The notes below the pieces were generated by a model. That model saw nothing but the letters and a program-made list of their open reading frames with translations. It made no database searches and was not told where the DNA came from. This document shows, one piece after another, positions 2,127 through 27,505 of a stretch of 37,920 nucleotides of DNA. A program made the position numbers and the translations under genes. The stretch lies in IMG/VR virus record IMGVR_UViG_3300017674_000012, positions 1 through 37,920 of that record. One strand, 5' to 3'. Source of the DNA: a virus. Positions within the stretch are counted from its first letter, which is position 1. Each line of letters starts with the position of its first letter.

Positions 2127-3086
2127 TTAAGCCTCGTATTGAATAAAAATCCAGCCTCGATTCATAGTATTGTCGTTGAAGGCTGCTGAATCAAAAAAAC
2201 CTGCTGCCTTTCTTTTTAAATAAACGGATGCGTCAATAGTGTTGATCGCATCAAGCAACTCATTTGAAGATAGTGTCAAAGGATACAGGTTAGTTCCCGC
2301 ATCATTCAGGATCATAACAGAAACATCTCTTATCTTTGTAAAATCAGCTAATCCATGAACTATAGTCACGTTAGCAGTTGATTGCATGTCCCAAACTCCA
2401 ATGTTAATAGTTTTCTGCTTAAAATAAGGACCCGAATTCTGAGTTCGAATTCCCCCTGTAATCTCTAATGCCCCGGTCATTACATCACCAGCTTTAGCAA
2501 CTTTTCCCGCAAGAGCTGTAGCCGTTGTTGTGGCAAAATTAGGATCATTTGAAAGAGCTGCAGCGAGTTCATTCAAAGTATCGAGTGTTGCTGGAGCTGA
2601 AGCGACCAAAGCAGCCAGCTGACCAGGAACATCCAATAAGTTGGTGTTTATCCGGGACTTAAAAGTCAATAGAGCGGAGAAGTCGCATAGTCCTGATCCA
2701 GAAACTCCGAAGCTCCAAACCAATTTGCGAACCTCGTGAGTGTTAAAAGTGTTGTTGTCTGAATAAACAACCGGGTCACCAGCTCGATAGGTTGTCTGAA
2801 GTGTAAGGACTGGCACCTGACCAACTGAAGCCACACCTACAAAAGCAGGAACTTCAAATACCTCGTTATTATAAAATACGACTCCTGCAGAAATGTTATA
2901 GTTTAATCCAGAACCGGAATTTACCAATCCAATCATTTGAGTTACGCCTGGAGCATTAACAAGCAAGGCATTCATGACTGAAGCTATGCTTTCCACATAG
3001 CTTTCTTGAATGTGCTCGAATGTTGATTTCTGAGCAAATAATGATCTGACACCGGCAACGATGTTACTCAAATTAATTTTCTTCAT
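2127..3086 (-). CDS. Tail fibre protein (distal end of tail operon)
   Basis: This 319-residue protein follows the gpI-like gene and overlaps it by 4 bp, which is where Mu and P2 carry their fibre (gpH) gene. The first 60 residues are a helical attachment region. The middle has the fibre-type patterns LVASAPATLDTLNELAAAL and KAGDVMTGAL, which recur in many tail fibres near the shaft. The C-terminal part is beta-rich and probably contains the receptor-binding tip. No chaperone gene follows; the next feature is the phage end. There is no signal peptide, unlike the three fibre-like genes at 4416-7843. Confidence 0.75.
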   Translation of the reverse strand: MKKINLSNIVAGVRSLFAQKSTFEHIQESYVESIASVMNALLVNAPGVTQMIGLVNSGSGLNYNISAGVVFYNNEVFEVPAFVGVASVGQVPVLTLQTTYRAGDPVVYSDNNTFNTHEVRKLVWSFGVSGSGLCDFSALLTFKSRINTNLLDVPGQLAALVASAPATLDTLNELAAALSNDPNFATTTATALAGKVAKAGDVMTGALEITGGIRTQNSGPYFKQKTINIGVWDMQSTANVTIVHGLADFTKIRDVSVMILNDAGTNLYPLTLSSNELLDAINTIDASVYLKRKAAGFFDSAAFNDNTMNRGWIFIQYEA

Positions 3087-3553
3087 ACGATAACAATATT
3101 GTAAGTAGTACCAAACATTTTATACTTGTTCACATAGCCAAGCATTTCAGCTGCAGAGAAAACGATCACCGCAGGAACGTTAATTGTAAAGCTATATTGA
3201 GAAATAGCGCCGACACCATCATAGATCAGGGCGCCATCTACAGTCGAACCTATAGTACTCCTTAAATCAGGAGATTCTCCTATATAAAGGCCATCATTTG
3301 AAATGCTATTTGTAGTAATGTAGATGCCGGCCCCAAATTCCTGAATCAATAACTGTTCTAATTTGATAGTCTGACCATTCCACTTGATCTCATCTACTAC
3401 AATCTGAGTGTAATTTAGAAACGAATCATGTATCGTTTGAAGAGGCTTCAAACATGCTTTTAACCAAGCAATTCTCTTAGCTTTCCTAAGCAGATAACCA
3501 AGCAATTGCTTGATCATTTTTAAGAAGTCTAACGAATAACTTGAAAGAGCCAT
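3083..3553 (-). CDS. Baseplate protein, gpI-like (Mu gp48 position)
   Basis: This 156-residue protein lies between the J-like and fibre genes, the normal place of P2 gpI or Mu gp48, which joins baseplate wedges to fibres. The N-terminal half is a basic helix-rich region (KMIKQLLGYLLRKAKRIAW). The C-terminal half is beta-rich with a YNIVIV end. Sequence similarity to gpI is not obvious to me, so the call rests mainly on gene order and size. It overlaps the next gene by 4 bp, suggesting translational coupling. Confidence 0.5.
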   Translation of the reverse strand: MALSSYSLDFLKMIKQLLGYLLRKAKRIAWLKACLKPLQTIHDSFLNYTQIVVDEIKWNGQTIKLEQLLIQEFGAGIYITTNSISNDGLYIGESPDLRSTIGSTVDGALIYDGVGAISQYSFTINVPAVIVFSAAEMLGYVNKYKMFGTTYNIVIV

Positions 3554-3554
3554 A

Positions 3555-4400
3555 CTATTGAGCTACGTAAGTGAACATTGTCGCAAAAGAAATGGCGGGA
3601 TCCTTCTCGATGTATCCACTAGCCGGTACATATACTCTCGATACGGTTGCATAGGTACCGGCATCTATTTTAGCCTGAACGACTCCTTCCCGAACATCAT
3701 TCACATTATCGACCTCTTGTACCGCATCGATCAACCTTGTGATGCTAAACTCTCCATTGAACTGTAAGTTGGCCAGGTAATTTGTAAAGGCAGCTTCGCA
3801 TAGAGCTTGCATGTCAACCAATGGCACTTGGCCATTAAAGTAAATTGTAAGAGGAGCATTTAGTTTATCTGAATTACCGCTGCTCACAACCAGTTGCATT
3901 CCTGCCCATTTGATCTGATTGATGTAGCTTCTCAGAGCGGTTAACTCACCAACACTTAATGCGACAGGACTTCCTGAGCTCAATTTAGCAACCTTAACGT
4001 AGCTGATTGACCCAGCACTTTGAATTGCACATCTCTTTACAATTTGATTAACATCGTTGATAACAGGATAATAGTATTTCGCAGATGTTAAATCAAAACT
4101 CAAGACATCTCCGTACTGAAATTTTAGAACTTCTTTTTGAAGCCACTTTTCCGTGCCTGGAATAGCACTATCAGCAATGGATTGAATTTCACTCTTCCTT
4201 TCTTCCCAGATGCTATTAACGATTACACTCATGGCGGCAAATAGCCACATCCACAAGTTATACTCAGCAGTTTTACTTATGCTGTTAACTCCATCCAAAG
4301 TGGCGTCTGAATTCACTTCATTGTAAATCAATGTATAGTATTCATCTACCCTTGCCTTGAAGGCTTGAAACTGAGTCAGTATATCGTTAACTGTAATCAT
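3555..4400 (-). CDS. Baseplate J-like protein (Mu gp47 counterpart)
   Basis: This 281-residue protein ends with the J-family pattern of a SITRLIDAVQEVDNVNDV segment (about residues 219-237) followed by a beta-rich tail. J-like proteins form the wedge scaffold of contractile-tail baseplates. The N-terminal region (ILTQFQAFKARVDEYYTLI) is helical. The next gene downstream is the gpI-like gene, as in Mu and P2. In those phages the gp25-like gene lies directly upstream; here four to five extra genes separate it from J. Confidence 0.7.
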   Translation of the reverse strand: MITVNDILTQFQAFKARVDEYYTLIYNEVNSDATLDGVNSISKTAEYNLWMWLFAAMSVIVNSIWEERKSEIQSIADSAIPGTEKWLQKEVLKFQYGDVLSFDLTSAKYYYPVINDVNQIVKRCAIQSAGSISYVKVAKLSSGSPVALSVGELTALRSYINQIKWAGMQLVVSSGNSDKLNAPLTIYFNGQVPLVDMQALCEAAFTNYLANLQFNGEFSITRLIDAVQEVDNVNDVREGVVQAKIDAGTYATVSRVYVPASGYIEKDPAISFATMFTYVAQ

Positions 4401-4415
4401 CTTGGTTCAGATCAC

Positions 4416-4829
4416 TTAATTAGCCGGCAAAGCACTATCACCAGTCAAAACCCCGGCAAGATTATTAAATATGTTATCCAGCTGCACTGAGTTGGTTATC
4501 TCTGCATCAGTTGGCTGCCCATTGCCATCCAGCACTGGAGTTGTTTTTGTGTACCCTGCCAGCCAGTAATGAGTTAATACTTTCATGTCAATTCCTCCAG
4601 CAGCTCCACGCACAAAAGCGTTGCCATATATCTGCTGCTTTTGCTTTTGCAAATTATCGATTACAATGACGTTGATAGCCGCGTTGGCCTTGGAGAAAAG
4701 AGCCTGATAAAGCCTTTGTTGAAAGACTTCATCTCGAGCAATGGTAGCTTTTTCGGAAAGTGTCAATGCCTGACAGTATCCGGCAATAGATACAAGTAAA
4801 AATACGGTAATGCAGATCAAATTTTTCAT
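4416..4829 (-). CDS. Small exported protein in tail region, unknown function
   Basis: This 137-residue protein starts with a clear Sec signal peptide (MKNLICITVFLLVSIAGYC, then QALT). The mature part is mostly helical with no motif I recognise. It is the last of three consecutive exported proteins inserted in the baseplate cluster. A phage protein carrying a cleavable signal would reach the periplasm or surface rather than assemble in the cytoplasm, which is hard to reconcile with an ordinary virion role. There is no lipobox, since the residue before Cys is Tyr. Confidence 0.6.
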   Translation of the reverse strand: MKNLICITVFLLVSIAGYCQALTLSEKATIARDEVFQQRLYQALFSKANAAINVIVIDNLQKQKQQIYGNAFVRGAAGGIDMKVLTHYWLAGYTKTTPVLDGNGQPTDAEITNSVQLDNIFNNLAGVLTGDSALPAN

Positions 4830-4843
4830 TTGGTTTTATAGTT

Positions 4844-6010
4844 TTAGAATTCGATCCATTCAATTGATACATTTATAACACCACCAGTTATGGTGGCGCC
4901 GTTCAAGTTCAAGCAAAGCCCTTGAGCTGTGCCTGACAAAATTATCGGTTTGCCATTCTCTCCAAACTCTAAAGTGTACTCAGAAAATTCGGGTGTAGCC
5001 GATGCTGAAATCGCCTGATACCACCGTCTAATATTTCCTAGAGATGTGCCAGGCGTTGGGTTTGCTGTGTACGCAATAGGTGTTGAGCTATTAGCGGCAT
5101 CCGTTGTTTCGTGCTGGGCTAATGAAAAGTTAGATGATGTGCCTCCGCTATTGGCGGTTGATCTTCTAACCAAAATAAAATCAACCATTCCGGTAGTGGT
5201 CTGTATTCCCGTAATTCTAATTTTGGTTATCTGCACAGTGGTTGTTGCATTTCCAAAGAATGCGACAATATCCGTAGCTGCGGCGGCAACCGTTATGTTG
5301 GCGCTAGCTGAATAAGTTCTTGCACTCGTACGGAATCCAGCGACATATTTCGCACCAAATCTATTGACTGTCACTTCGCTATAATCCCCTGCTGCGCTTG
5401 CTGAGGTTGTTAAAGCGTCCCTTCTTACACCAAGGATTGGAACTCCTGTATCACCAGATGAGGCTACAGCATCTTCTGCCTTACCTAATGACGTAGCGGA
5501 AGTTCCTCCTGTTCCTAAGTTGAAAGTTCCAATAGTGTTAGCGCCTGCCGGAAGTGGTGCAAATAGAGTATAGTAAAAATTATTGGTTATCGCTTTTATC
5601 CTAACATTTGCCGTTCCGGTTACTGCTGCCAAAGCAGAAACTCTTACAGTTTCCCATCCGGCTACGTTGACTGTGAATACGCCGACTGCTGCCGATGCTA
5701 TGGTCGCTGATTGCGCATTTGTTACTTGATTAGTCACCGCTAACGCATTTGTGACCGTCTGCCAAGTAGTTCCATTGTCCTGAGAAAGTTGAATAGAAAG
5801 CGCGCCGGTGTAAGTTCCGGCCACGTTTATACTCACCGTTGCCTGATTGTTTAAATCAAATCTGACAAATGATCCTGCTGTTGGAACACCTGTTAATGGG
5901 TTAAGGTTTTGCGTGGTGATTGAACCCGTTGCTATTCCTGTGCCGTTGCCAAATTGAATCTGAGCTAACGATGCAATTGGTAAGAGTAATAATAAAAATA
6001 TTTTCTTCAT
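4844..6010 (-). CDS. Exported beta-rich fibre-like protein
   Basis: This 388-residue protein has a Sec signal peptide (MKKIFLLLLLPIASLA, cut before Gln17, the usual Bacteroidota pattern). The mature protein is rich in Thr, Ala, Gly and Asn. It has beta-sandwich style segments, including TYTGALSIQLSQDNGTTWQ, a pattern common in phage-encoded structural and adhesin-like proteins. Its spacing of 14 and 12 bp from its neighbours indicates one operon with the other two exported proteins. It may be a fibre, a decoy or a surface protein; the sequence does not decide. Confidence 0.6.
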   Translation of the reverse strand: MKKIFLLLLLPIASLAQIQFGNGTGIATGSITTQNLNPLTGVPTAGSFVRFDLNNQATVSINVAGTYTGALSIQLSQDNGTTWQTVTNALAVTNQVTNAQSATIASAAVGVFTVNVAGWETVRVSALAAVTGTANVRIKAITNNFYYTLFAPLPAGANTIGTFNLGTGGTSATSLGKAEDAVASSGDTGVPILGVRRDALTTSASAAGDYSEVTVNRFGAKYVAGFRTSARTYSASANITVAAAATDIVAFFGNATTTVQITKIRITGIQTTTGMVDFILVRRSTANSGGTSSNFSLAQHETTDAANSSTPIAYTANPTPGTSLGNIRRWYQAISASATPEFSEYTLEFGENGKPIILSGTAQGLCLNLNGATITGGVINVSIEWIEF

Positions 6011-6022
6011 TGGTTTTTATAC

Positions 6023-7843
6023 TTAGTTAACAATTCTCCATTTTCCAGACACGCGCCGGATGATATAATTTGCGTTAGCAAGTAATTGAGTTACGACAGT
6101 TACATTGTCCGCTAGGAAGACAGGGGCGCCAGCCAACAGCCAAACAAAACCAGCTTCGTTGTTGTATATCTCAATGTAGTCACCATTGGTAGCTGTAGGA
6201 AACGTAATGGTTTTGTTTGTTGTAAGCGTAGCTGGCGGTAAGTATTTTACTGAATTTACTCCAATAGTAAAACTGGCATCGGTAGCATCTGCTGCAATGG
6301 TTAATCCAGAAGCGCTAACACTTGTCCAAGTTGCAGGTGCTCCAGCCCCTCCGCTCGTCAACACTTGTCCACTCGTCCCCTCACTTCCGCCTACCGATAA
6401 GCCGCCAGCATCTTTAAAGGCAAATCTTTCTGTGTTTGCGCTTGTAGCGAATCGGGCAATGTTTGTTCCTCCAGATAATCCCCGAACATCTAATCTAGTA
6501 CTTGCTGTTTGTGTATCAAGTGATGAGTTACAGATAAATACTGTTCCAATATTTGACCTAATAGCATTATGCGCCGCAGCTATTGATCCGGTTAAAGGAG
6601 GATCGTGGAGAAATCCTATATAGCTGTTAATTCCAGCGGCCGCAACCGGTGACCTTGAAAAAAATGCAACGTAATCAACGGTAGCGCCTCCAGAGGTAGT
6701 AAGAGTTTTATTGGTACTATAGTCAACAATAGTTCTGATACCTGCGCTTCCTGTAGATACTGTTCCTGTTGTCGTGTATCCAGTGTATGACCCAACAGTA
6801 GCGTAATTGGTCACTGAATTTGAAAAAGTCGTAGCGTTAACCGTTACGCCCCCAGCAATTAAACTAGATATACCTTGCAGTGTCCCATTATTTTGCAGGG
6901 TCATTGCATTAGTATAACCAGCGCCATTTACATTAAAAGCAAAAGAGAAAGTACCTATTGGATTCGATGTACCTGATGTCGGACTCATTAAAATTCTACC
7001 TTTCACGTTTTGAGATACAACTGGAGTTGTTGCCCACCCATTACCATCAAAAACTATTGATCCGGGATTTTGATTAAGTACAGCAGTTGCAGCATCAGAA
7101 TTTTGTAACCATAATCCTACACCATCTGTATTGGTTATCCCAATTCCATTGAAATTGAACCGTAGCGTATTGGTTGCTGAGCCTATAATGTTATTTGCAC
7201 CAGTTAACGTGCCACCAGAAGATAGTGACCATGCTCCAGCATTGGAGGCCGTTATGTCAGATAACAACGCAACTGTTCCACTAGCATTTGGTAGAGTATA
7301 ACTTCTATCTGCTGTATTTGACGTTCCATCAAAAGTTCTTACAAATCCATTTTGTCCTTTCCAGCTAAATCTATTTGATGCATCTGAATACAATCTAAAT
7401 CCACTACTTGGTGTAGCTGGAGTTGAGGACTGAACAATAAAACCATGATAGCCTGCACCCGCAGTTCCAGTAAGATCGCCACCAATTTTACTCAGAGCAT
7501 CGGTAATGCCATAACCACTGAGAGTAGTTGGCGTTCCTGTTATTTTACTCCATGCAAGTGAAGTAATCCAACTAGGATTAGAATAAGTACCTGAAGTCAA
7601 TACCACAGGATCAGTAATACCATAACCACTGAGCGTAGTTGGCTTTCCTGTTATGCTACTCCAGGAAATACTTGGCATTGAACTCCAAACTAAACTTAAC
7701 GAAGCTTTCTTAGTTGAACCTGACTGCACAACCGGAAAGACTTCCGTCCCGGACAGTGAGGAGGCCGCGGGAAGATCACTTACTTTCTGAGCTTTAGATA
7801 TCAGAAAGCCAAATACAAAGAATATAATTAGATAACCTCTCAT
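6023..7843 (-). CDS. Tail-fibre-like protein with signal peptide
   Basis: This 606-residue protein has a signal peptide (MRGYLIIFFVFGFLISKA, then Q). It continues into a fibre-type head region (VSDLPAASSLSGTEVFPVV) and two copies of the phage fibre repeat WS.ITG.PTTLSGYGITD (residues 61-78 and 98-115). The rest is low-complexity beta-helix style sequence, ending in a small C-terminal domain (about residues 510-606) with YIEIYNNEAGFVWL. This architecture is typical of tail fibres, apart from the signal peptide. The gene is in the late operon between a membrane protein gene and another exported protein gene. Confidence 0.7.
   Translation of the reverse strand: MRGYLIIFFVFGFLISKAQKVSDLPAASSLSGTEVFPVVQSGSTKKASLSLVWSSMPSISWSSITGKPTTLSGYGITDPVVLTSGTYSNPSWITSLAWSKITGTPTTLSGYGITDALSKIGGDLTGTAGAGYHGFIVQSSTPATPSSGFRLYSDASNRFSWKGQNGFVRTFDGTSNTADRSYTLPNASGTVALLSDITASNAGAWSLSSGGTLTGANNIIGSATNTLRFNFNGIGITNTDGVGLWLQNSDAATAVLNQNPGSIVFDGNGWATTPVVSQNVKGRILMSPTSGTSNPIGTFSFAFNVNGAGYTNAMTLQNNGTLQGISSLIAGGVTVNATTFSNSVTNYATVGSYTGYTTTGTVSTGSAGIRTIVDYSTNKTLTTSGGATVDYVAFFSRSPVAAAGINSYIGFLHDPPLTGSIAAAHNAIRSNIGTVFICNSSLDTQTASTRLDVRGLSGGTNIARFATSANTERFAFKDAGGLSVGGSEGTSGQVLTSGGAGAPATWTSVSASGLTIAADATDASFTIGVNSVKYLPPATLTTNKTITFPTATNGDYIEIYNNEAGFVWLLAGAPVFLADNVTVVTQLLANANYIIRRVSGKWRIVN
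7499..7663 (-). repeat. Direct repeat encoding tail-fibre GYGITD motif
   Basis: Two near-identical blocks of about 54 bp (7499-7552 and 7610-7663) encode the two WS.ITG.PTTLSGYGITD units of the fibre-like protein. The high DNA identity suggests a recent duplication, or recombination between fibre genes. Confidence 0.7.
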
Positions 7844-7854
7844 GTTTTAAAATC

Positions 7855-8235
7855 CTAAGCTGCTTCACTCTTTACCTTTCCATCTGCAACATCAGTCTTA
7901 TAATCAATCACCTTATTAATTTGATTGCTCATTACACCAAATACACGAGAAGCTATATCGGCACCTGTGTAACCCACAAAGGCAAAACCAAGCCGGATGT
8001 ATTGTAAAACAAGCTCATTGAATCCAATCAACTCATCCGTTACAACTAACGCAATCAAAATGGTTGTGACCGATGCGCCAAGAGACAACCAATCCTTTCT
8101 GAAGTAATCGCCAGGATTAAAAGAAACATTGCCAACACGTGACTTGTCGGCTAAGCTTTTAAGCTTTAAAAAAACCTGCAGAGCCATACCTAAAAGGCCG
8201 GCTACAAAGCACCACAAATACATTGCAATAGTCAT
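7855..8235 (-). CDS. Small membrane protein, possible second holin or inner membrane anchor
   Basis: This 126-residue protein has two to three hydrophobic segments (about residues 4-24, 50-68 and 80-100) and a charged C-terminal tail. It starts the cassette of exported proteins in the baseplate cluster. Its size and topology allow a holin, but a better placed holin candidate lies next to the lysin at 16946-17137. I do not recognise a family with certainty. Confidence 0.5.
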   Translation of the reverse strand: MTIAMYLWCFVAGLLGMALQVFLKLKSLADKSRVGNVSFNPGDYFRKDWLSLGASVTTILIALVVTDELIGFNELVLQYIRLGFAFVGYTGADIASRVFGVMSNQINKVIDYKTDVADGKVKSEAA

Positions 8236-8247
8236 ATATTTTAAAAT

Positions 8248-8787
8248 TTAAGATTCAGCCAACAAATAAGAACCATCTTCAGCAAGAAGAGGAGTACCAT
8301 CTTCATTCAGCAACACATTCGCCGGAACACCACTTGCATCTATATCAAAAACACCCGAGCAAACTTTGTGACTTATTGACCTCAAATAGTCACGCACATC
8401 AGTATTAACTACATCCAATTCATTAACTCTCAACTGTAATCCAGCTGCAGGAAAAGAATTTGGAGTAAGGTTATTAAGCCTTAGAAAAGAAATAAACCCT
8501 TCAATGCTTCCACTTTCCTGAAGTACTAGATCGATCAAGTTCTGTTCCGCGTTGACAATTGAAACAGATTGTTTTACAATAGGCTTTTTACTAAACAGAG
8601 GCTTCGAAGAGCTTAGCTCTGTCTTCAGCACTTCATTGATTACACATGAATTGTTTCCTGCTAAGTCTTCATAATCCACCGAAAAGCCATTCTCCTTACA
8701 AAAAGGAATGAGCGCTTCAATATGACCATAGGCACGAATGCAAAGGTCTACAGCACTTTCATCTTTGTATGTATCAATAGTTTTCAT
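8248..8787 (-). CDS. Tail protein with two gpX/LysM-like repeats
   Basis: This 179-residue protein has two related segments: about residues 13-48 (VDLCIRAYGHIEALIPFCKENG) and about 85-125 (LIDLVLQESGSIEGFISFLRLN). The pattern is [IV]D[LI]x(4)G[SH]IE..I.F...N. It resembles the short LysM-like gpX tail proteins, which bind between hub and tube, but here it is doubled. The C-terminus ends in a phage-typical LLNEDGTPLLAEDG motif. The gene overlaps the gp25-like gene by 4 bp (ATGA), so the two are coupled. The function is inferred from this resemblance and position. Confidence 0.55.
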   Translation of the reverse strand: MKTIDTYKDESAVDLCIRAYGHIEALIPFCKENGFSVDYEDLAGNNSCVINEVLKTELSSSKPLFSKKPIVKQSVSIVNAEQNLIDLVLQESGSIEGFISFLRLNNLTPNSFPAAGLQLRVNELDVVNTDVRDYLRSISHKVCSGVFDIDASGVPANVLLNEDGTPLLAEDGSYLLAES

Positions 8788-9071
8788 CGATAACTAGCAA
8801 CAACATTTACAATCCCTTCACTGGAAACCTCCAGCTTACTTATTAACAGCCCATCATTTTCAAATTGACGCTGTATCTCCTGATACAAATCGCCAATGTT
8901 ATCATCAACCAAATAATTTGTTAGTCCAACTCCAGTTTTCGGATATTGGCGCAGCTCACCTTTTTCAAGCCCCATCAAAAGCTGCTGATGTTGTAAGTCG
9001 CTGTCGCCAACTACAAAATCACCGCCCTCGATGCGCAAATCAAAATCAGTATCGAGTAAGTAATCTGTCAT
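8784..9071 (-). CDS. Baseplate wedge protein, gp25/gpW-like (Mu gp46 counterpart)
   Basis: This 95-residue protein has the size and pattern of the T4 gp25/P2 gpW family: an N-terminal DFDLRIEGGDFVVGDSDLQHQQ segment, GELRQYPKTGVGL in the middle, and an ISKLEVSSEGIVNVVASY beta strand at the end. Members are part of the wedge core that triggers sheath contraction. It lies directly after the spike gene, as in Mu and P2. Confidence 0.78.
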   Translation of the reverse strand: MTDYLLDTDFDLRIEGGDFVVGDSDLQHQQLLMGLEKGELRQYPKTGVGLTNYLVDDNIGDLYQEIQRQFENDGLLISKLEVSSEGIVNVVASYR

Positions 9072-9593: not shown

Positions 9594-10616
9594 CTAAGCG
9601 CTTACTTTTATACCTGGAGAAATTTCCCTGCGCGCACCTCTCACACTGAAAGTTGTTAATACCGAATCAATAATGTAGCTGCCGGCACGGACTTCACCAT
9701 AGCGCGGGTCCTTCAGCTCCGTGATCATCAGTGGCTCAGCGTATGGATATAGGAAGGTTCTAAATTCGCCTTCAAAGCCTGTGAACTTATACTTCTCCAG
9801 ATCATTTTTAGCAAGATTCAGAAGCTCGGATTCATTGCTTACATTATAGTAATGAACTGTTCGAAGCTCTCCGGAAGCATCACCAACAATTTCTTTTGTT
9901 TCTACTTTCTTATTCTGCTTGGTAATTCCGATTGGCTTAATTCGAATCTGCGTATCCTCATTCTTACGATAGGTCAAATCACTATCAATAACATTCCATG
10001 CCAGGCTGTGCCTTACTGTACCATAAGTCTTTTGATAAGACAAACCGGTAAAAAGTGTCTTACCTTTGAAGTAGGAAGCTAACCCAAAATGATCACGTAT
10101 CTTTTCCAATGCTGTAGCTGCATTGTTCCCACTTTGGATAACAAAACCCTCCGTAAAATTCACTTCCGGAAGATCACGGCTCAAGTCAAGTGCAGCAGCA
10201 GGAAATTTCTTATTAACCTCATCAACCAGGTAAGCAACCACATCTTTCAGCGTAGCCTTATCTGCTACACTCCAGCTTTTTCTTACCGGAGTCCTCTTCA
10301 AGTACCAAACGCTATCCTCACATTCTATTTCAAATGGAATGTTTGGCTTAATGCGACTTACAATTCCTTCAAACTCCGTATGCTCAGCCAAGCCCAGGTA
10401 CTTCAGCTTAACGATTACCGGATCACCTACCTTGATGAAGCTTTCAAGCGTATTGCTTTTTAAATCAGGGCTGCGCACAAGCTTAGGAAGTTGAATAGTA
10501 CAAGTATCACCCAACTTGCGCCAGCTCTTCTCTATCTTCACCTCGTGACACTGGAGAAAGCGATAACTGCCTACGGTTATGTCACAGAACAAAACAAACA
10601 TGAGTATTAATTTCAT
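9594..10616 (-). CDS. Baseplate hub protein, gpD/gp27-like (Mu gpP/gp44 counterpart)
   Basis: This 340-residue protein has the pattern of contractile-tail hub proteins: an opening beta hairpin (ITVGSYRFLQCHEVKIEKSW), a DTCTIQLPKLV strand, a GDPVIVKLKYLG strand, an FEGIVSRIKP segment, and a later domain with IRDHFGLASYFKGKTLFTGL. The hydrophobic N-terminus is probably part of the first strand rather than a signal peptide. The ATG overlaps the upstream stop (ATGA). In the virion it would form the trimer holding the spike. Confidence 0.75.
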   Translation of the reverse strand: MKLILMFVLFCDITVGSYRFLQCHEVKIEKSWRKLGDTCTIQLPKLVRSPDLKSNTLESFIKVGDPVIVKLKYLGLAEHTEFEGIVSRIKPNIPFEIECEDSVWYLKRTPVRKSWSVADKATLKDVVAYLVDEVNKKFPAAALDLSRDLPEVNFTEGFVIQSGNNAATALEKIRDHFGLASYFKGKTLFTGLSYQKTYGTVRHSLAWNVIDSDLTYRKNEDTQIRIKPIGITKQNKKVETKEIVGDASGELRTVHYYNVSNESELLNLAKNDLEKYKFTGFEGEFRTFLYPYAEPLMITELKDPRYGEVRAGSYIIDSVLTTFSVRGARREISPGIKVSA

Positions 10617-11233
10617 TGTACACTTTCACTACGTTCTACTAATTCTAAATCAACCAACTCATCGCTCGTGCCGATGATCTCATAAGGCTGCACAGCCATG
10701 CCCCGGCATTCAGGAAAATCAAAATCATAAATTGCAATCTGAGTTATACCCCACATAGTAAGTATCGCATTCTCTATTGCAACACTTCCTGATTGAGTAA
10801 CAACTTCACGCAAAGCCCTCAGCTGCTCTTCCGGATAATCGTCCGGGTCATTTTCATTGATCAGCAAACCACGAATTCGAATGTTGTAATTGTTGAGATT
10901 GATTTCCTCCAGCACATTTTGACGGTTCAAAAATCCGACCGGGTCCAACCTTGTAATTTTGGTTTCAATGATCTCTTTACCACCTCGTATTCGAATGGTT
11001 GGCTCATTGGGCAATTGATAGCCGGCAATCTTTGTAGGCATTGAAAATTCAGTGCCACTAATTCCACTTGAAAACTTGAAAGCACCACGCAGGGCCCTGG
11101 CAGTTCCAACTGGAGATAATTTGACCTGCTTACTATCCAATACAAGCGTAGGATAAGGTGGGCGCAGCGTACCAAAAAAGGTAGTGTACACCTGGCTTAG
11201 ATCATATTGTATACCTTGTTGTCCCGGTGTCAT
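10613..11233 (-). CDS. Tail/baseplate protein between tape measure and hub (DUF6046-like)
   Basis: This 206-residue protein occupies the place of Mu gpN, between tape measure and hub. It shows a beta-rich region with KIAGYQLPNEPTIRIRGGKEIIETKI and the helix-strand RQNVLEEINLNNYNIRIRGLLIN, which I associate with the DUF6046 family of Bacteroidota phages. It overlaps both neighbours by 4 bp (ATGA), so translation of the three genes is coupled. It probably links tube and hub; the assignment rests on position. Confidence 0.55.
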   Translation of the reverse strand: MTPGQQGIQYDLSQVYTTFFGTLRPPYPTLVLDSKQVKLSPVGTARALRGAFKFSSGISGTEFSMPTKIAGYQLPNEPTIRIRGGKEIIETKITRLDPVGFLNRQNVLEEINLNNYNIRIRGLLINENDPDDYPEEQLRALREVVTQSGSVAIENAILTMWGITQIAIYDFDFPECRGMAVQPYEIIGTSDELVDLELVERSESVQ

Positions 11234-12855
11234 TGTGCCTGTGCGTAGTTAGCTGAGTTCACCACTTCAATCATTTTTTCAACTGCCACCTTCTTCATCT
11301 TATCCATCAGGCCATTGATTTCCATCTCACCATTTACTTTCTCAATATTGCCAATGCCATTAAGCGTGGATATGTTAATCGTCACATTGATGGCCTGCTT
11401 GCCACCACCGGTGATCTTGTCGGTTCCGTCTTTTTCTTTTTTGGATTTACCCTTAGTAGGTTCAGTTAATTCACCAAAAGAGTTACCAACACCACCACGC
11501 ATAGCTAAAAGCAATTTTTTTGCTGCTTCGCTACGATTGTTACTACTATTAAATTTGGTATACGCTTCCGTAGTCTCCTTTATTTTCTTACCCAACTTAT
11601 CAATATCATCGATTCTATTTTTGATATCGTCTTCACTCAGTTTATCACTGCCAATAAGCCGATCAAATACGGACGATTGAGATATTTTACCTGTGTTGAT
11701 TTCGTCTTGTAGTTTGTCAATTTCTTTTCGCCATCCTCCTATCTGCTTAAAATCCTTTTCAATATTTCTTTCAGCTGCCATGGAAGCAAATTCCAAAGAA
11801 GACAACTTATCTTTCACTTTACTGTCACTTAGTTTAGCTGATTTACCTGAAGAAAAATCACTTCCTAATTCAGGAAATTGATCTAGTATTTTTTGTTCAA
11901 ACTCCTTTTCAAAAGGTGTTCCTTTATAACCTTGATAGCTTTCATAAAGAGCCGAAAGCTCTCCACGTGCGTTGGTTTGTTTTTTGAATCCGGATATCGA
12001 AGATTTGATATCGCCATGATCCAACACTTTTATAATTTTATCTAACAGAGGCGACCATAGCCGATTGATGTTTTCACCAACTTGTGTAAAGGCTATTTCC
12101 AGCTTATCGGCCACAGTACTCATCTTACCTTCCACCGTTTGGCTTTGCTTATCCATCATGCCAAAAAACCTTCCACCTTCGCTGGTCGCACTTATAAAAG
12201 CGGCTTCTACCATTTTGGCAGAGATAGCTCCTTCTTCCATTTTCTTTTTCAGCTCGCCAATACTGAGTCCCGTTTTCTCACTGATTACCTGTAGTGGATT
12301 AAACCCACTATTTACCATTTGGAGAAGATCTTGCCCCATCAGTCTTCCTGCAGCCTGGCTTTGTGCAAAAGCGAGGGATAGCAGGCGAAGGCGTTCTGAG
12401 TTACCACCGCTCACATCACCCAACATCCTTAGTGTAGGAATTATCTTTTTTGCCTCCACACCAAAGCCTAACAATGTCTTACCGCTCGCTTGCAAATCGC
12501 GCGAAGTAAAAGGTGTTACGTTGGCAAGAGCTATCGTGTCGTTCAGCATTTTATTTCCTGCCTCAGCTCCACCAAGCATTACCTCATAACTAATTCGTGT
12601 TTGTTCAAACTCACGCGCAAGCGCGCTGGCTTTTGTGATTCCCATAGAAAGGCCGGCAATTAGAGCCGCTGGTCCTAAATACCGAGTCACCCCACTCAGA
12701 GCCTCTGCAAAAAAGTTAGAGCTATTAGTCGCTTTGTTCATGCTTCCACTAAAGGCATCCACTTTACTCTTACCACTAGAAGCAGCATTAGCCAGCCGAC
12801 TAATTTTGTCGGTGGCCTGATCTTTTAAGCGTATGATGTATTCGTAGACTTTCAA
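11230..12855 (-). CDS. Tail tape measure protein
   Basis: The N-terminal half has the tape-measure domain: FEQTRISYEVMLGG, LANVTPFTSRDLQASGKTLLGFG, NSERLRLLSLAFAQSQAAGRLMGQDLLQM and NPLQVISEKTGLSIGELKKKM. A charged helical C-terminal half follows. I place the start at the TTG at 12855, because TTGA couples it to the stop of the frameshifted chaperone (12852-12854) and the coding then begins with LKVYEYIIRLKDQAT. An upstream ATG at 12933 would instead overlap the chaperone extension in another frame. At 541 residues the protein is short; if the usual relation holds, the tail is about 80 nm. Confidence 0.82.
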   Translation of the reverse strand: MKVYEYIIRLKDQATDKISRLANAASSGKSKVDAFSGSMNKATNSSNFFAEALSGVTRYLGPAALIAGLSMGITKASALAREFEQTRISYEVMLGGAEAGNKMLNDTIALANVTPFTSRDLQASGKTLLGFGVEAKKIIPTLRMLGDVSGGNSERLRLLSLAFAQSQAAGRLMGQDLLQMVNSGFNPLQVISEKTGLSIGELKKKMEEGAISAKMVEAAFISATSEGGRFFGMMDKQSQTVEGKMSTVADKLEIAFTQVGENINRLWSPLLDKIIKVLDHGDIKSSISGFKKQTNARGELSALYESYQGYKGTPFEKEFEQKILDQFPELGSDFSSGKSAKLSDSKVKDKLSSLEFASMAAERNIEKDFKQIGGWRKEIDKLQDEINTGKISQSSVFDRLIGSDKLSEDDIKNRIDDIDKLGKKIKETTEAYTKFNSSNNRSEAAKKLLLAMRGGVGNSFGELTEPTKGKSKKEKDGTDKITGGGKQAINVTINISTLNGIGNIEKVNGEMEINGLMDKMKKVAVEKMIEVVNSANYAQAQ

Positions 12856-13588
12856 AGCAATGGTCGATTTGTTAAACTCTGTTTCAACTCCTCTTGCCTT
12901 ACATACTCCAGCATCTTCACTGCCATGGCCCACTGCTCATCACTCATTGAGTCAGGGTCTTCGCGCAGATAGTATTTAATGCAAGCGTTTTTCTGAAGTA
13001 TCCAGGAGGCAGAGAGTATTTCTTCTGCCTCCTTTAAAACTTTTTTACCTCAACGTATTTTTTATTCTTAACCTCACGCACCTTCAGAAGAGCGGCCATG
13101 TATGCAGGAACATTTTTACGCAGTTCACTTAACTGATCCGCTTCTAAAGCGACACGCTCCAGCAAATAGATGTTGCTCAGCAGTGGTTTATCTTCCGCAT
13201 TGCGATCATCGGCATAAGCCAAGTCCATGCGGGTTGCCTTTCTTACCAGCAGTTTAAATCCATCAATAACAATTTCGCAATTGCCATTTTCAAGCTCTTC
13301 TACTATAGCTTCAGGAATGTCAATGAGATTATCAGTTTGTTGCTCAATGCCAACTTTAAAAGCATCATCTTTTTTCAAATCTTCATCGCCACCCAGCCAA
13401 CAGTTGGCTAGAAGGGAGTCAACCATTTGCCGCACGCCCTTTTGCCGGGCCGCGACTATAGCTTTCATTCTGTTAAAGTCTGTAGTGGGATCAAAAACGA
13501 AAACCGACTTACCATCGGCAATCAATTCGCGGCAGTTACCTTCTCCGTATTTGGCCTGCCATTCTTTTTTTTGCTCTTCTATATTCAT
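12852..13588 (-). CDS. Tail assembly chaperone, -1 frameshift product (long form)
   Basis: After Lys183 a -1 slip on the heptamer at 13040-13046 opens 62 further codons (13040 to 12855) ending at TGA 12852-12854, giving about 245 residues. The extension reads as protein: EAEEILSASWILQKNACIKY, then SDEQWAMAVKMLEYVRQEE, resembling the short helical GT-type domain that recruits the tail tube protein. The extension overlaps the tape measure start by one codon. No ATG with a reasonable leader begins this frame, which argues against an independent gene. Confidence 0.82.
13004..13046 (-). other. Programmed -1 ribosomal frameshift signal (slippery site plus hairpin)
   Basis: On the minus strand the zero-frame codons GTA AAA AAG contain the canonical heptamer A AAA AAG (13046 to 13040). 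Six nucleotides later comes a perfect 10-bp stem, AGGAGGCAGA (13033-13024) with TCTGCCTCCT (13013-13004), around a 10-nt loop. Heptamer, spacing and stem match the standard bacterial stimulatory layout. The stop codon of the short form lies between heptamer and stem. Confidence 0.88.
13034..13588 (-). CDS. Tail assembly chaperone, short form
   Basis: This 184-residue protein precedes the tape measure gene and follows the tube gene, the place of Mu gp41. It has acidic and helical segments with NGNCEIVIDGFKLLVRKATR in the middle. The zero-frame product ends VEVKKF, and the heptamer A AAA AAG overlaps its last codons. As in lambda G/GT and Mu gp41-gp42, this short form would coat the tape measure protein together with a longer frameshifted form. 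The leader shares a 17-bp sequence with the early gene at 34408. Confidence 0.75.
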   Translation of the reverse strand: MNIEEQKKEWQAKYGEGNCRELIADGKSVFVFDPTTDFNRMKAIVAARQKGVRQMVDSLLANCWLGGDEDLKKDDAFKVGIEQQTDNLIDIPEAIVEELENGNCEIVIDGFKLLVRKATRMDLAYADDRNAEDKPLLSNIYLLERVALEADQLSELRKNVPAYMAALLKVREVKNKKYVEVKKF

Positions 13589-14069: not shown

Positions 14070-15269
14070 TTAAAGCTCAAATCCGAGGTCAATTACCAAT
14101 TGCTTTCCGTATCCTTTTGGGGTCACTCTTACCTTGATGGGAATAATGCCGGTAACAACAATATTTACCTGGGCACTGATTTCACTACTCACGCTGCTTA
14201 CCTCTTTATCCTTTCCCGGTTGATTGAAAGCTGAAAGCAGGGCTTTGTCAATTTTAGCCTGATAACTTTTTGCAATGGCCGCGAGTAAGAAGCCATCTTC
14301 ACCAACTTCTAAATCATCAAGGATTTCATCCACGTAGGTCTTTTGAGTGACAATGATGGCTTTGTCGATCACACGGCCCAGTGCTATGGAATCGTAGTCA
14401 TCGGTGGCCGGAGCAGCTGTTGGGTCATCATTGAAATAGTATCCATTGCGGTTTGGATACTTGCGCATGAAGATGTAACCCTTGTTATGAATTTGGTCAA
14501 TCTGACCACCGCTAACAATAGTGAATGTTTTGGTGTCAGTGGATTGATTGGTTAAAAAAGCTGCCTGGATACCTAAGTCACCATCTTTCACGCGACCGAT
14601 ATTTCTTTGCACCGGGTTAGCTGCAAGGCGTCCTATGACTAATCCGATAGAAGCATTTTTGCTACCGGAAACATCAGTGCCAATGCAGACAGCTACTGAA
14701 TTGAAAGCGCTTGCTTTCAGGTCTGAAAGAGAGCCGATAGTACCTTGAAAATCGCGGCCATCTAACACCGTTCTAAACGGCTTAAACTCGGCTCTGAATT
14801 CATTATGAAGAGCATGGGCTTTTGCTGCAGCTGCTATCACATCAGCATCCAATTGACCTGTGTATGTTGCAACATAGGCTCCGTCCGGAACGCGAGTAAC
14901 ACCAACTATTCGGATTCTGCCATCTGCATCGTTGAGAAGCTTTTTCAAAATCGAGTTAGCCGTATCACAAATGGTAGACATTGTGCTGGTCTTAGCCACA
15001 ATCATAATCCAAAGCTCTTTTCCGCTGCCAGCCTCAGCATAGAAGTCCTTAATCGTTTTCCAAACATTGGTAGTGTTGGTAACGTCATAGGCACTGGTAA
15101 TGCCAATCGCTTCAGCTTCAGCCAACGTAAACAACTGCTTACTCACACCCAGTGCCAAACCGGTTGCAGCAACACCGGTCATTACAATGCCGGCAACACC
15201 ATCCTCTGTGGTGATCACCGCATCAAGAGCTCCATTCGCTAAGGTTATTGAAATACCAGGTGCAGCCAT
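14070..15269 (-). CDS. Tail sheath protein (DUF2586-like, Mu gpL counterpart)
   Basis: This 399-residue protein starts with PGISITLANGALDAVI, a pattern I associate with the DUF2586 sheath family of Bacteroidota phages. Long alternating domains follow, and the C-terminal strand KVRVTPKGYGKQLVIDLGFEL corresponds to the sheath's donor strand. Its presence shows the virion is myovirus-like. It is followed 12 bp later by the tube gene. Confidence 0.82.
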   Translation of the reverse strand: MAAPGISITLANGALDAVITTEDGVAGIVMTGVAATGLALGVSKQLFTLAEAEAIGITSAYDVTNTTNVWKTIKDFYAEAGSGKELWIMIVAKTSTMSTICDTANSILKKLLNDADGRIRIVGVTRVPDGAYVATYTGQLDADVIAAAAKAHALHNEFRAEFKPFRTVLDGRDFQGTIGSLSDLKASAFNSVAVCIGTDVSGSKNASIGLVIGRLAANPVQRNIGRVKDGDLGIQAAFLTNQSTDTKTFTIVSGGQIDQIHNKGYIFMRKYPNRNGYYFNDDPTAAPATDDYDSIALGRVIDKAIIVTQKTYVDEILDDLEVGEDGFLLAAIAKSYQAKIDKALLSAFNQPGKDKEVSSVSSEISAQVNIVVTGIIPIKVRVTPKGYGKQLVIDLGFEL

Positions 15270-15294: not shown

Positions 15295-15780
15295 TTAGTT
15301 TCCTTTTGATTTACCTTTAGCAGCAGCAGCTTTCTGAGCCTTTGCGCTTGCAGCCTTGGTTTTATCTGCTTCAGGAGTTTTAGATGCTTCGGCTTCTGCA
15401 GCTTCTGCAGCTTTCGCATTCTCCTCGTCCTGAATTCTCACGCGCTCTTCCTCTGCAGCTTTCGCATCCTCTTCCTCCTGAATTCTCACGCGTTCGGCTT
15501 CTGCAGCTTTCTCAGCCTCCTCCTGCTCGATTCTCAGGCGCTCAGCTTCAGCAGCTGCTTGCTCCTTTTCAAAATCCTCATTCGAGAAATCGGATGGATC
15601 ATTGCGATATACCGGGATGAGCTTATCATCCGGATTTTTCTCCGTGAATTGCTTCTGATGGTTAAATCCATCGTGCATATTTTCCTTCAGGAAAACATTG
15701 CCATCGGTGGCAACAAAAATCACATCAGCGTTAGGGTAGTTGTCAAAGTACTCAGCGTACTTCTCGCGTAAGTCTTTCAT
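15295..15780 (-). CDS. Coiled-coil protein with 16-residue charged repeats
   Basis: The start is set at the ATG at 15780, which overlaps the spanin stop (ATGA). The protein has 161 residues. A globular N-terminus (about 1-70, VIFVATDGNVFLKENM) is followed by three 16-residue repeats of the type AEAERVRIQEEEDAKA (residues 77-124) and a Lys/Ala-rich tail. The repeats predict a long single helix or coiled coil. It stands between lysis and sheath genes. Its function is unknown; head-tail or scaffold roles are possible. Confidence 0.6.
   Translation of the reverse strand: MKDLREKYAEYFDNYPNADVIFVATDGNVFLKENMHDGFNHQKQFTEKNPDDKLIPVYRNDPSDFSNEDFEKEQAAAEAERLRIEQEEAEKAAEAERVRIQEEEDAKAAEEERVRIQDEENAKAAEAAEAEASKTPEADKTKAASAKAQKAAAAKGKSKGN
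15409..15552 (-). repeat. Three tandem 48-bp coding repeats
   Basis: Three imperfect 48-bp units encode the 16-residue charged helical repeats of the coiled-coil protein. Copy-number change between related phages is likely, as is usual for such repeats. Confidence 0.8.
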
Positions 15781-16373
15781 AGTTTTATTCGGTTGGTTTT
15801 TATAAAAAAAAAGAGAATTCCAGCAAGAAGGGTAAGCCCGGAAATCCATCGGCATACTTTATCGATCCATCGAGTTACATAGACAGGCACTTCTTTCTTT
15901 TCAGATGAGACTGAACTTTTGTAGTGGTATAACTCTTTGTCCAGGGCAATTGCGACAGCGGTCACACTATCACAATTTGATTTTGCCTCTATGTTGCCGG
16001 CAGCATCTATGCTTAGATCAACGGAGGAAGTTTTACTTTTCGCTTTCCATGTTTTAGGCTTAAACACCGGCACAACCTGATCAGGTTGTTTTGGGCAAGG
16101 ATTTGTTTTTTTTGTGCTATCAGGAAGGGAGGTTGTACGAAAGCCATCCCATTTAATCGAATTGAAATCAAGCTCTGCTTTTCCTTTTACGCTACTGGAG
16201 TCTTCTTTAACCGTTAACTTAACAGCCCGAGCAGTAGTACGTTCATAAGTACTATCATTCTTCTTGACTTCTGATGTGGAGGACACCACGCCAGGAGCGC
16301 GGCACCCCGCCACAATCAAAAGTACCCAACCAGTGAGCAGAAGAGATTTTAACATCGTTTGGATGGCTTTCAT
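15777..16373 (-). CDS. Unimolecular spanin (lipoprotein with C-terminal membrane span)
   Basis: This 198-residue protein has an N-terminal lipoprotein signal ending in the lipobox VAGC (Cys24) and a hydrophobic C-terminal span (about residues 176-191, ISGLTLLAGILFFF) followed by a short basic tail. A protein anchored in the outer membrane by lipid at one end and in the inner membrane at the other matches the u-spanin design of phage T1 gp11, which fuses the two membranes at lysis. It follows the lysin gene by one base, as spanins often do. Its middle region is charged and low in hydrophobicity, consistent with crossing the periplasm. Confidence 0.8.
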   Translation of the reverse strand: MKAIQTMLKSLLLTGWVLLIVAGCRAPGVVSSTSEVKKNDSTYERTTARAVKLTVKEDSSSVKGKAELDFNSIKWDGFRTTSLPDSTKKTNPCPKQPDQVVPVFKPKTWKAKSKTSSVDLSIDAAGNIEAKSNCDSVTAVAIALDKELYHYKSSVSSEKKEVPVYVTRWIDKVCRWISGLTLLAGILFFFIKTNRIKL

Positions 16374-16374
16374 T

Positions 16375-16923
16375 TTAAAATTCTTTTAATAGCGTGTAGG
16401 TAAAATACTTTTGACCGCTCAACTTGCAGAGAGCCATCAACTCAGAAAACTCTGCCGGATTATTTAGTACTTGACAGCCGGCACTCCAACTATCAATTGT
16501 TTTGCTTATTACCGTTTCACTGGCTCGATGGATGTTGATACCAAACAATCCCGTATCGAGCAAACTGGTTTCATCACTCTTGCCATCAAGATTTTTATCA
16601 CGGTGAACTGTGACCGGACGCACTTGCACCAAAGCCTCATATCGACCGCGATGCTTTCCAATCTCCCAACATCCTACATATTGTCGATCGGCCTGAAGGA
16701 CGGCCGCACCCTTTGGATTCAGCAGCTTAGTTAGCCAGCTTGCCCCTGGATTAGTGGTGCATGTAAACTCTTTCTTCTCAAGATTTGAAATCACATAAAG
16801 CTTATCGTCAAACTGATTTGGTAAGTCTGCTTTACTTCGAACTCCTACCAAGTGAAAAGAGAACCAACCTAAATTCAACTTTAGGCAGCGATCTTTTAAT
16901 TCGATATAAGAGTATGTTTTCAT
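16375..16923 (-). CDS. Endolysin candidate with L,D-transpeptidase-like (YkuD-related) catalytic motif
   Basis: This 182-residue protein has the motif GINIHRAS (His132) followed by SWSAGCQV (Cys150), the spacing and residues of the YkuD/L,D-transpeptidase active site (HG..x14-17..[ST]HGC). Phage versions use Ser-Ala/Leu-Gly-Cys. There is no signal peptide, so release would depend on the holin. The protein lies between the small membrane protein and the spanin. It could cleave L,D bonds in peptidoglycan and act as an endolysin; a structural cell-wall-modifying role is the alternative. Confidence 0.65.
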   Translation of the reverse strand: MKTYSYIELKDRCLKLNLGWFSFHLVGVRSKADLPNQFDDKLYVISNLEKKEFTCTTNPGASWLTKLLNPKGAAVLQADRQYVGCWEIGKHRGRYEALVQVRPVTVHRDKNLDGKSDETSLLDTGLFGINIHRASETVISKTIDSWSAGCQVLNNPAEFSELMALCKLSGQKYFTYTLLKEF

Positions 16924-16945: not shown

Positions 16946-17137
16946 CTAGCCTCCTAGTTTTTTATGAATCCACTTCAAAAGTTTGTTGGCGTAAAATCCA
17001 ACCACAGCTCCAATCACTGCCATTAATACTGTCTCTAAAAGATTATTGACAGTTATCAACCCAAGTACACTTCCTAGTACCGTGCCGACCGTTCCACCGA
17101 TCGTGCCTTCCATGTTATCAGCCAATTGCCCAGACAT
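16946..17137 (-). CDS. Holin candidate
   Basis: This 63-residue protein has two glycine-rich hydrophobic segments (about residues 13-31 and 35-52) and a basic C-terminus (KLLKWIHKKLGG). Size, two-span topology and position just upstream of the lysin and spanin fit a class II holin. No sequence family is recognised. Confidence 0.6.
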   Translation of the reverse strand: MSGQLADNMEGTIGGTVGTVLGSVLGLITVNNLLETVLMAVIGAVVGFYANKLLKWIHKKLGG

Positions 17138-26738: not shown

Positions 26739-26993
26739 ATGGGTGAAAGGCCCCAACTTGCCTTTTTTAACATGGCAGAATTTACAAAGGAAGGAGTAAA
26801 CGAAAAACCAGAACGCATTCGAAAGATCATCGAACAGCGCAAGCGCAACACCGAGTTTCGCAATGAGGCTATTCGAATGAAGTTTAATCAGAAGTATAAT
26901 GTTGATCGCAAACGCTACGATGATGTGATCACCGAGCTGGCCGAAGAGTTCCATCTGGCCGTAAGCACTATTGAGACTGCTCTGAAGGGCTAA
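26739..26993 (+). CDS. Small HTH protein at end of plus-strand block
   Basis: This 84-residue protein (taken from ATG 26739; ATG 26697 is possible) contains KRNTEFRNEAIRMKFNQKYN and DVITELAEEFHLAVSTIETAL, a helix-turn-helix resembling small Bacteroidota phage and mobile-element proteins. Its promoter may be separate: TACTTTG at 26686-26692 with TTTG at 26660-26663, one base off the usual spacing pattern. It ends tail to tail with the exported-protein gene, overlapping it by 4 bp. It may be a regulator; nothing shows its target. Confidence 0.55.
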   Translation: MGERPQLAFFNMAEFTKEGVNEKPERIRKIIEQRKRNTEFRNEAIRMKFNQKYNVDRKRYDDVITELAEEFHLAVSTIETALKG

Positions 26994-27505
26994 TTAAAAA
27001 AAGCTTGTATTGAAATCAATTGTTTATCAGAAATATTCTGGTATACTTTTAAGAAATAGTTTCTGTCTCTCGATTTAAACTTTAAGACCAATCTCCCTTT
27101 ATTAGACTCGGTTTCTTCTGAGATAAACTCATGTTCCTTTAATAGTTCATCTTTCCATTTTTCGGTAGATTCAGTCTTTATTCTTATAGTAACACAAGTA
27201 TCATTCTTATAGAAATATTCGTATGAACTCATGTGCATTTCTCTGTCCACTCTAACGTCTACAATCATTTGACATGTTTTATCAAATACAACGCCATTTC
27301 CTTTTGAGAAGAAAGGCCCTTTCTTCTCATTATTCTTAAACAATTGAGTAACTCCATCAACTGTATATCCTTGAGAAATATACTCAGGATAGATAAATTT
27401 TAATGTCTGCTCATCCTTTTGCTTTTTCTTTTGAGCATAGCCGTTGTTGAATGAGCATATTAAAACAAGAAGGACAAAAAACGCGGTTTGATACTGTGCT
27501 TTCAT
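26990..27505 (-). CDS. Exported protein at end of early operon
   Basis: This 171-residue protein has a signal peptide with cleavage before Gln25 (NGYA, then QKKKQ). The mature protein is charged and beta-rich (GQL..KGPFFSKGNGVVFD, EYFYKNDTCVTIRIKT) and no family is recognised. It starts one base after the previous gene's stop. A secreted product from a phage's early region suggests a lysogenic-conversion or exclusion gene, but this is a guess. Confidence 0.6.
   Translation of the reverse strand: MKAQYQTAFFVLLVLICSFNNGYAQKKKQKDEQTLKFIYPEYISQGYTVDGVTQLFKNNEKKGPFFSKGNGVVFDKTCQMIVDVRVDREMHMSSYEYFYKNDTCVTIRIKTESTEKWKDELLKEHEFISEETESNKGRLVLKFKSRDRNYFLKVYQNISDKQLISIQAFFN

Follow-up and report, generated by a model that had tools for sequence, protein, structure and literature searches.

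How can a tailed phage make use of fibre-like proteins that carry signals for leaving the cytoplasm? The usual view is that tailed phages are put together entirely in the cytoplasm, and the question is raised by a cassette of four open reading frames (ORFs) in IMG/VR virus record IMGVR_UViG_3300017674_000012, the 37,920-nucleotide stretch of viral DNA referred to throughout as the window. As the original prediction had it, a membrane protein and three proteins with strong Sec signal peptides stand there between the wedge/gpX-like genes (W and X) and the J gene of the baseplate cluster, on the minus strand and separated by only 11-15 bases (Table 1). The largest of them does carry tail-fibre repeats: two SGYGITD-type repeats at residues 70-76 and 107-113 of the 606-residue protein, across which it matches PHROG tail-fibre and head-decoration families (phrog_7389, phrog_3018). 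Comparison with related loci supports the view that the export signals are real and selected, and suggests that they have been placed before otherwise ordinary virion-type N-termini.

The predicted signal peptides read MRGYLIIFFVFGFLISKA followed by QKVSDLP in the 606-residue protein, MKKIFLLLLLPIASLA followed by QIQF in the 388-residue protein and MKNLICITVFLLVSIAGYC followed by QALTLSEK in the 137-residue protein. Each has a positive n-region, a hydrophobic core (mean Kyte-Doolittle hydropathy of 3.1-3.3) and a small residue preceding the glutamine (Q). This glutamine stands immediately after the first plausible signal peptidase I site of each protein, where cleavage is predicted in keeping with the Bacteroidetes Q-rule; in Bacteroidetes the residue is present in an average of 71% of predicted signal peptidase I substrates (PMC5837995). 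Signal peptides were called by a heuristic on hydrophobicity and charge together with comparison with relatives, and single calls are unreliable without the comparison. Across the fetched loci (designated L002, L003 and so on) a signal peptide followed by Q occurs in 19 of 1311 ORFs, many of the 19 lying in host flank, and with this base rate three such genes in a row are not a matter of chance. We rejected a start-codon error as the source of the signals: no internal ATG occurs before residues 56, 275 and 82 of the 606-, 388- and 137-residue proteins, the sole near alternative being a TTG at codon 22 of the 137-residue gene.

The arrangement recurs independently at both ends of the interval. 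In L011, a partial contig from a Cytophagales metagenome-assembled genome (MAG), a 132-residue relative of the 137-residue protein (54% identical) stands directly before J and carries its own signal peptide, MKTLIATLLVFASLVASA followed by Q. In L069, also a partial contig, X is followed directly by a fibre that starts MKKLILFIPFFISLTITA and continues QKISELPAATT, related to the 606-residue protein across the signal peptide and first module; this is a distant relative, with a D protein only 25% identical to that of the window. The signal peptide of the 137-residue protein is about 35% identical to its L011 counterpart, against 54% over the whole protein, and both keep signal peptide and Q. In a simple simulation of this gene, about 1% of the runs that drifted without selection to the observed identity still had both the signal peptide and the Q site, which argues for selection on it. 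The heuristic did also flag the N-terminus of the D-like core gene at 9594-10616, a false positive exposed by its relatives, and the cassette could in principle be an artefact of prediction or assembly. We consider this exceedingly improbable, since the shared arrangement in L011 and L069 largely refutes it and the GC (guanine-cytosine) content of the cassette, 0.42-0.445, is in line with that of the phage's other genes.

What remains after the predicted cleavage resembles a complete virion-type protein. A 78-kb phage contig (L060) encodes a signal-less relative of the 137-residue protein, 49% identical to its mature part, which begins MASLTLSEKA; this start aligns exactly with the residues that follow the cleavage site (AQ/LTLSEKA in L011, CQ/ALTLSEKA in the window); its gene lies directly after a fibre-like gene of 1804 codons and before genes matching virion structural families. 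The mature 606-residue protein opens with the module KVSDLPAASSLSGTEVFPVVQSGSTKKA, and an xISDLP module occupies residues 2-13 of signal-less proteins in phi92 (gp140), Shewanella phage 1/40, DSL-LC05, CRP-5 and Moabite; in phi92 and Shewanella phage 1/40 the module gene comes after the hub, the spike and one further gene. The phi92 protein (assigned to phrog_9017, tail fiber protein) and S140_166 of Shewanella phage 1/40 share the xISDLP...TKK N-terminal module with the 606-residue protein; unlike it, they have the module from residue 3-9, no signal peptide and an unrelated remainder. Among the cassette proteins only the 606-residue one is related to tail-fibre families, through its repeats and the module in common with phi92 gp140. 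The 388-residue family occurs both with a signal peptide (L002) and with none seen (L056); in L002 the signal-peptide relative (7575-8990) is found in a GC-rich phage, directly after the major head protein gene.

Because the signal-less relatives start exactly at the predicted mature N-termini, these comparisons suggest that an export tag has been added before proteins of virion type, and that the docking end would be intact after cleavage. It had been argued that, unless assembly is unusual, proteins exported with cleaved signals are barred from a virion built in the cytoplasm; in that form the argument finds no support, as the predicted mature N-termini match those of signal-less virion-type relatives and lysis mixes periplasm with virions. 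Structure prediction gave a confident helical model for the 137-residue protein (predicted local distance difference test score, pLDDT, 79.8), with no significant structural match in PDB or BFVD, and a poor one for the 388-residue protein (pLDDT 37.9); searches of PDB by sequence turned up no relatives.

To place the cassette among related phages we compared 27 related loci with recognisable W and J. Extra genes lie between W/X and J in 18-21 of them; the automatic count is 21, and the range allows for a possible unrecognised X in L009, L052 (in part), L093 and L098. These extra genes encode fibres (L003, L004, L005, L012, L092) or lysis proteins (L008, L042), or are a mixture of kinds. An interrupted W/X-J interval is therefore ordinary in this phage group. 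The original prediction, which set the window against the adjacent genes of Mu and P2, was right about the separation and needs correcting in one respect, namely that J and the wedge genes often stand apart in these phages. Judged by its gene content, the X-J interval amounts to a slot in which fibre and lysis genes vary. The comparison also supports the view that the cassette is optional among the related phages. No relative of the whole was found in IMG/VR or the genomes searched, where only its ends or single genes recur.

The export signals set the window apart within this slot. A signal peptide with a Q site was found in 4 of 53 slot genes, namely the three window genes and one for a 121-residue protein of Peternella_1, and among complete loci the large fibre-type genes in the slot are otherwise all free of signal peptides. 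The slot fibres of Winoviridae (Flavobacterium phage lotta gp046, labelled structural from sequence similarity rather than mass spectrometry, and those of L003, L012 and L092) are likewise large fibre-type genes between X and J; in contrast to the window, they are of cytoplasmic type, with no signal peptide. The Peternella_1 protein (gp56; L006 9000-9365), an unannotated Q-rule protein, shows that a cultivated Winogradskyella phage can have such a gene in this slot; it is not visibly related to the window proteins. Two prophages of one genome (L096 5436-5990 and L097 4665-5219) each encode a 184-residue Q-rule protein shortly upstream of the sheath gene.

Fibres with signal peptides also occur in a few unrelated phages. 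A pattern scan for A-Q-[KTN]-x-S-x-L-P-A-A, which required the export site and so gives recurrence rather than frequency, returned six matches; those in L066, L067 and L069 are true, that in L070 and L071 (one common gene) is internal, and that in L068 is out of frame. In L066 and L067, GC-rich siphophage-type contigs, a signal peptide directly precedes QKISDLPAA and QKVSDLPAA, respectively, and in L066 the fibre gene, which is preceded by those for tape measure, distal tail and central tail fibre, has matches among tail-fibre PHROGs. These proteins resemble the 606-residue protein of the window in having a signal peptide directly ahead of a KxSDLPAA module and, for L066, a tail-fibre match; they differ in coming from a GC-rich, unrelated phage type with an additional module-bearing lipoprotein. 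This small lipobox protein, which shares its VSDLP...SEYV.AVQ module with the fibre, is encoded just upstream of it (L066 8354-8581 in reverse-complement coordinates; L067 175-516). The lipoprotein-type gene overlaps the fibre gene by four bases in both contigs, and the two are possibly a paired system. That a recurring class of tailed phages exports fibres and small partners through Sec, the matured fibres joining virions outside the cytoplasm, seems to us unlikely, if conceivable.

For the window itself, we consider it very probable from the signal peptides and their relatives that the cassette proteins are exported from the cytoplasm. Their destination would most simply be the periplasm. 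No lipobox of the kind that marks Llp/Cor-type lipoproteins was found in the window cassette proteins, and Pfam and NCBIfam, searched with E values up to 1, yielded no C-terminal sorting domain of the type IX secretion system; with neither signal found, no route to cell-surface display, such as surface decoys would need, was identified. A comparison of the cassette with PADLOC defence models gave no match. Two candidate reasons for export were rejected: periplasmic glycosylation, as D-S/T-hydrophobic motifs are not enriched (none found in the 606-residue protein, 2.4 expected), and disulphide formation, as the mature proteins have 0-1 cysteine each. The short gaps within the baseplate operon, and a scan for Bacteroidota-type promoters that gave only chance-level matches for a promoter of the cassette's own, point to late expression; the suggestion that the proteins might be made during lysogeny is not borne out.

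We tentatively favour an explanation in which the slot holds a co-exported fibre/adaptor set that is processed in the envelope, keeps its docking end and meets virions at lysis. The set would comprise the 606-residue protein as a long fibre, the 388-residue protein as a beta-rich accessory and the small helical 137-residue protein. Late in infection the Sec machinery would export all three; signal peptidase I would cut before the glutamine, which the host would presumably cyclise to pyroglutamate, and the mature proteins would gather in the periplasm, so that they would do their work beyond the cytoplasm. At lysis the matured set could then meet released virions and dock through its intact N-terminal module. 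The slot, the signal peptides with their conservation, and the intact predicted mature N-termini can be read from the sequence; export, its late timing and the periplasmic destination are inferred from these, docking at lysis is conjectural, and the docking role of the module is suggested by its position. In favour of this explanation are the intact docking end, export of the whole set including the small helical partner, and a slot with no signal-less fibre. Several considerations weigh against it. Lysis also frees cytoplasmic fibres, so that export is needless merely to meet virions, and this favours a function before lysis. Neither glycosylation motifs nor the near absence of cysteines offers a reason for periplasmic maturation. 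Moreover, docking as deduced from gene position, cleavage, late expression and virion association are all putative.

A function before lysis is what an exclusion or anti-readsorption set would provide: proteins exported late would, from the periplasmic side, bind to the receptor that the phage itself uses or to the tails of incoming phages, and so stop superinfection or the loss of progeny on the dying cell. This would account for the need to export before lysis. It also has a precedent in Llp of phage T5, which is encoded beside the receptor-binding protein and blocks FhuA from the periplasmic side (PMC9586334). The small L066/L067 lipoproteins, whose xVSDLP...SEYV.AVQ module gene overlaps the start of a signal-peptide fibre gene, fit such a role as well. 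Llp, to which the same paper relates the Cor proteins, resembles the window proteins as an exported phage protein whose gene neighbours that of a receptor-binding protein, and gives the precedent for action from the periplasm; Llp, however, is a small lipoprotein, whereas the window proteins are of virion type and have no lipobox. The retained virion-type N-terminus and the lack of a match among PADLOC defence models also count against exclusion, and the small helical, adaptor-like 137-residue protein is an unlikely receptor blocker. We regard exclusion as a serious but doubtful alternative; docking is ranked slightly above it, and the data do not separate the two.

The remaining explanations are less probable. 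If the signal peptides stayed uncleaved, the proteins could be normal virion parts whose folding and assembly take place in the cytoplasm, the hydrophobic N-terminus touching the membrane or docking the tail. Their virion-type families and location among baseplate genes would agree with this, as would the published major capsid proteins of P. gingivalis phages, for which signal peptides are likewise predicted and maturation is ascribed to the phage prohead protease (PMC10367356). We nevertheless consider it quite improbable, as there would be no reason to keep a Q-rule site in every Bacteroidota example if cleavage were immaterial, and the signal-less relatives have no such N-terminal extension. 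Moron-like genes for lysogenic or lytic conversion, encoding fibre-derived envelope proteins that alter the surface of the host and serve the lysogen, appear more improbable still. Q-rule proteins of unknown function in P. gingivalis prophages have been proposed to modify the outer membrane (PMC10367356), and the window phage has another Q-rule protein outside its virion genes (26990-27505), but the cassette sits inside the late operon, its genes 11-15 bases apart, and its own promoter matches are unconvincing; no outer-membrane or surface-sorting signal was found.

The P. gingivalis Nixviridae prophages do parallel the window in that some of their genes encode signal peptidase I sites of the Bacteroidetes type; these genes were reported as of unknown function, not as fibre-type proteins in a baseplate operon (PMC10367356). 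What appears new is the export signal on a variable fibre slot, Q-rule proteins in Bacteroidota prophages being already known as genes of unknown function. Phage diversity-generating targets described in the hankyphage paper are without signal peptides (PMC6199706). In the open-access literature searched, which is not the full literature, we found no description of Sec-tagged fibre-type proteins in a baseplate operon or of Sec-exported tail fibres. Selected host-style export signals on virion-type proteins in a baseplate operon would imply either tail assembly with an extracytoplasmic step or fibres turned into exported exclusion factors; if a recurring class of Sec-exported fibres were real, part of tailed-phage assembly would take place in the envelope or after lysis.

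Table 1. Cassette, baseplate and other tail genes of the window.
Feature	Position	Strand	Remarks
319-residue signal-less tail protein	2127..3086	(-)	After I; occurs in closest relatives
I-type baseplate protein	3083..3553	(-)	
J-type baseplate protein	3555..4400	(-)	Downstream border of slot; matches phrog_38413 and J relatives
137-residue helical protein	4416..4829	(-)	Predicted signal peptide, GYC/Q
388-residue protein	4844..6010	(-)	Predicted signal peptide, SLA/Q; C-terminal part common to L002, L056 and OscarSo gp10
606-residue tail-fibre-like protein	6023..7843	(-)	Sec signal peptide 1-18, predicted cleavage SKA/Q; then KVSDLPAA...VVQSGSTKKA N-terminal module, then SGYGITD repeats
126-residue membrane protein	7855..8235	(-)	Heads cassette; two or three hydrophobic stretches
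X (LysM/gpX-type) baseplate protein	8248..8787	(-)	Upstream border of slot
W (gp25-type wedge)	8784..9071	(-)	
D-like protein (hub)	9594-10616		
Tape measure	11230-12933		
Sheath (DUF2586-type)	14070-15269		

The window phage is, from its gene content, transposable and related to Winoviridae. At one end the 37.9-kb record carries a Mu-type transposase and an ATPase; host DNA makes up about 2 kb at the opposite end, and a contractile-tail module is also present. The transposase gene, 35620-37920, matches the C-terminal domain of Mu transposase with E 2e-4, slightly below the Pfam cut-off; the ATPase, from 34635-35606, is AAA/TniB-like. The DUF2586-type sheath, D-like hub, W, X, J and I follow in the order of a Winoviridae-related Mu-like myophage. 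Of the 18 phage records found to encode a relative of J, 15 belong to Flavobacterium or Winogradskyella phages, and those inspected are classed as Winoviridae. The 319-residue protein encoded after I is the phage's ordinary cytoplasmic fibre.

In the host flank, gene 559-1992 encodes a hydrolase/D-Ala-D-Ala dipeptidase fusion that is cut in the window after residue ~467. Its complete relatives in three genomes from the searched order (68-69% identical) align to residue 467-468 only, and this cut marks the phage-host junction at ~1963-1985. A Cytophagales MAG holds both the closest J (79%) and one of the three complete fusion relatives. Given the truncated fusion gene and this MAG, the phage most probably had a host of Cytophagales type, and the record is in all likelihood a prophage that is flanked by host DNA on one side.

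Elsewhere in the window, the Q-rule signal-peptide protein at 26990-27505 has 171 residues and no family match. The 126-residue protein that heads the cassette gave no family match in Pfam, NCBIfam and PHROG searches; its position and topology suggest a holin-like protein. At 15777-16923 an endolysin-type gene (phrog_33083 match) adjoins one for a lipobox protein that is hydrophobic near its C-terminus and resembles a one-protein spanin, and a 63-residue hydrophobic ORF at 16946-17137 may encode a holin.

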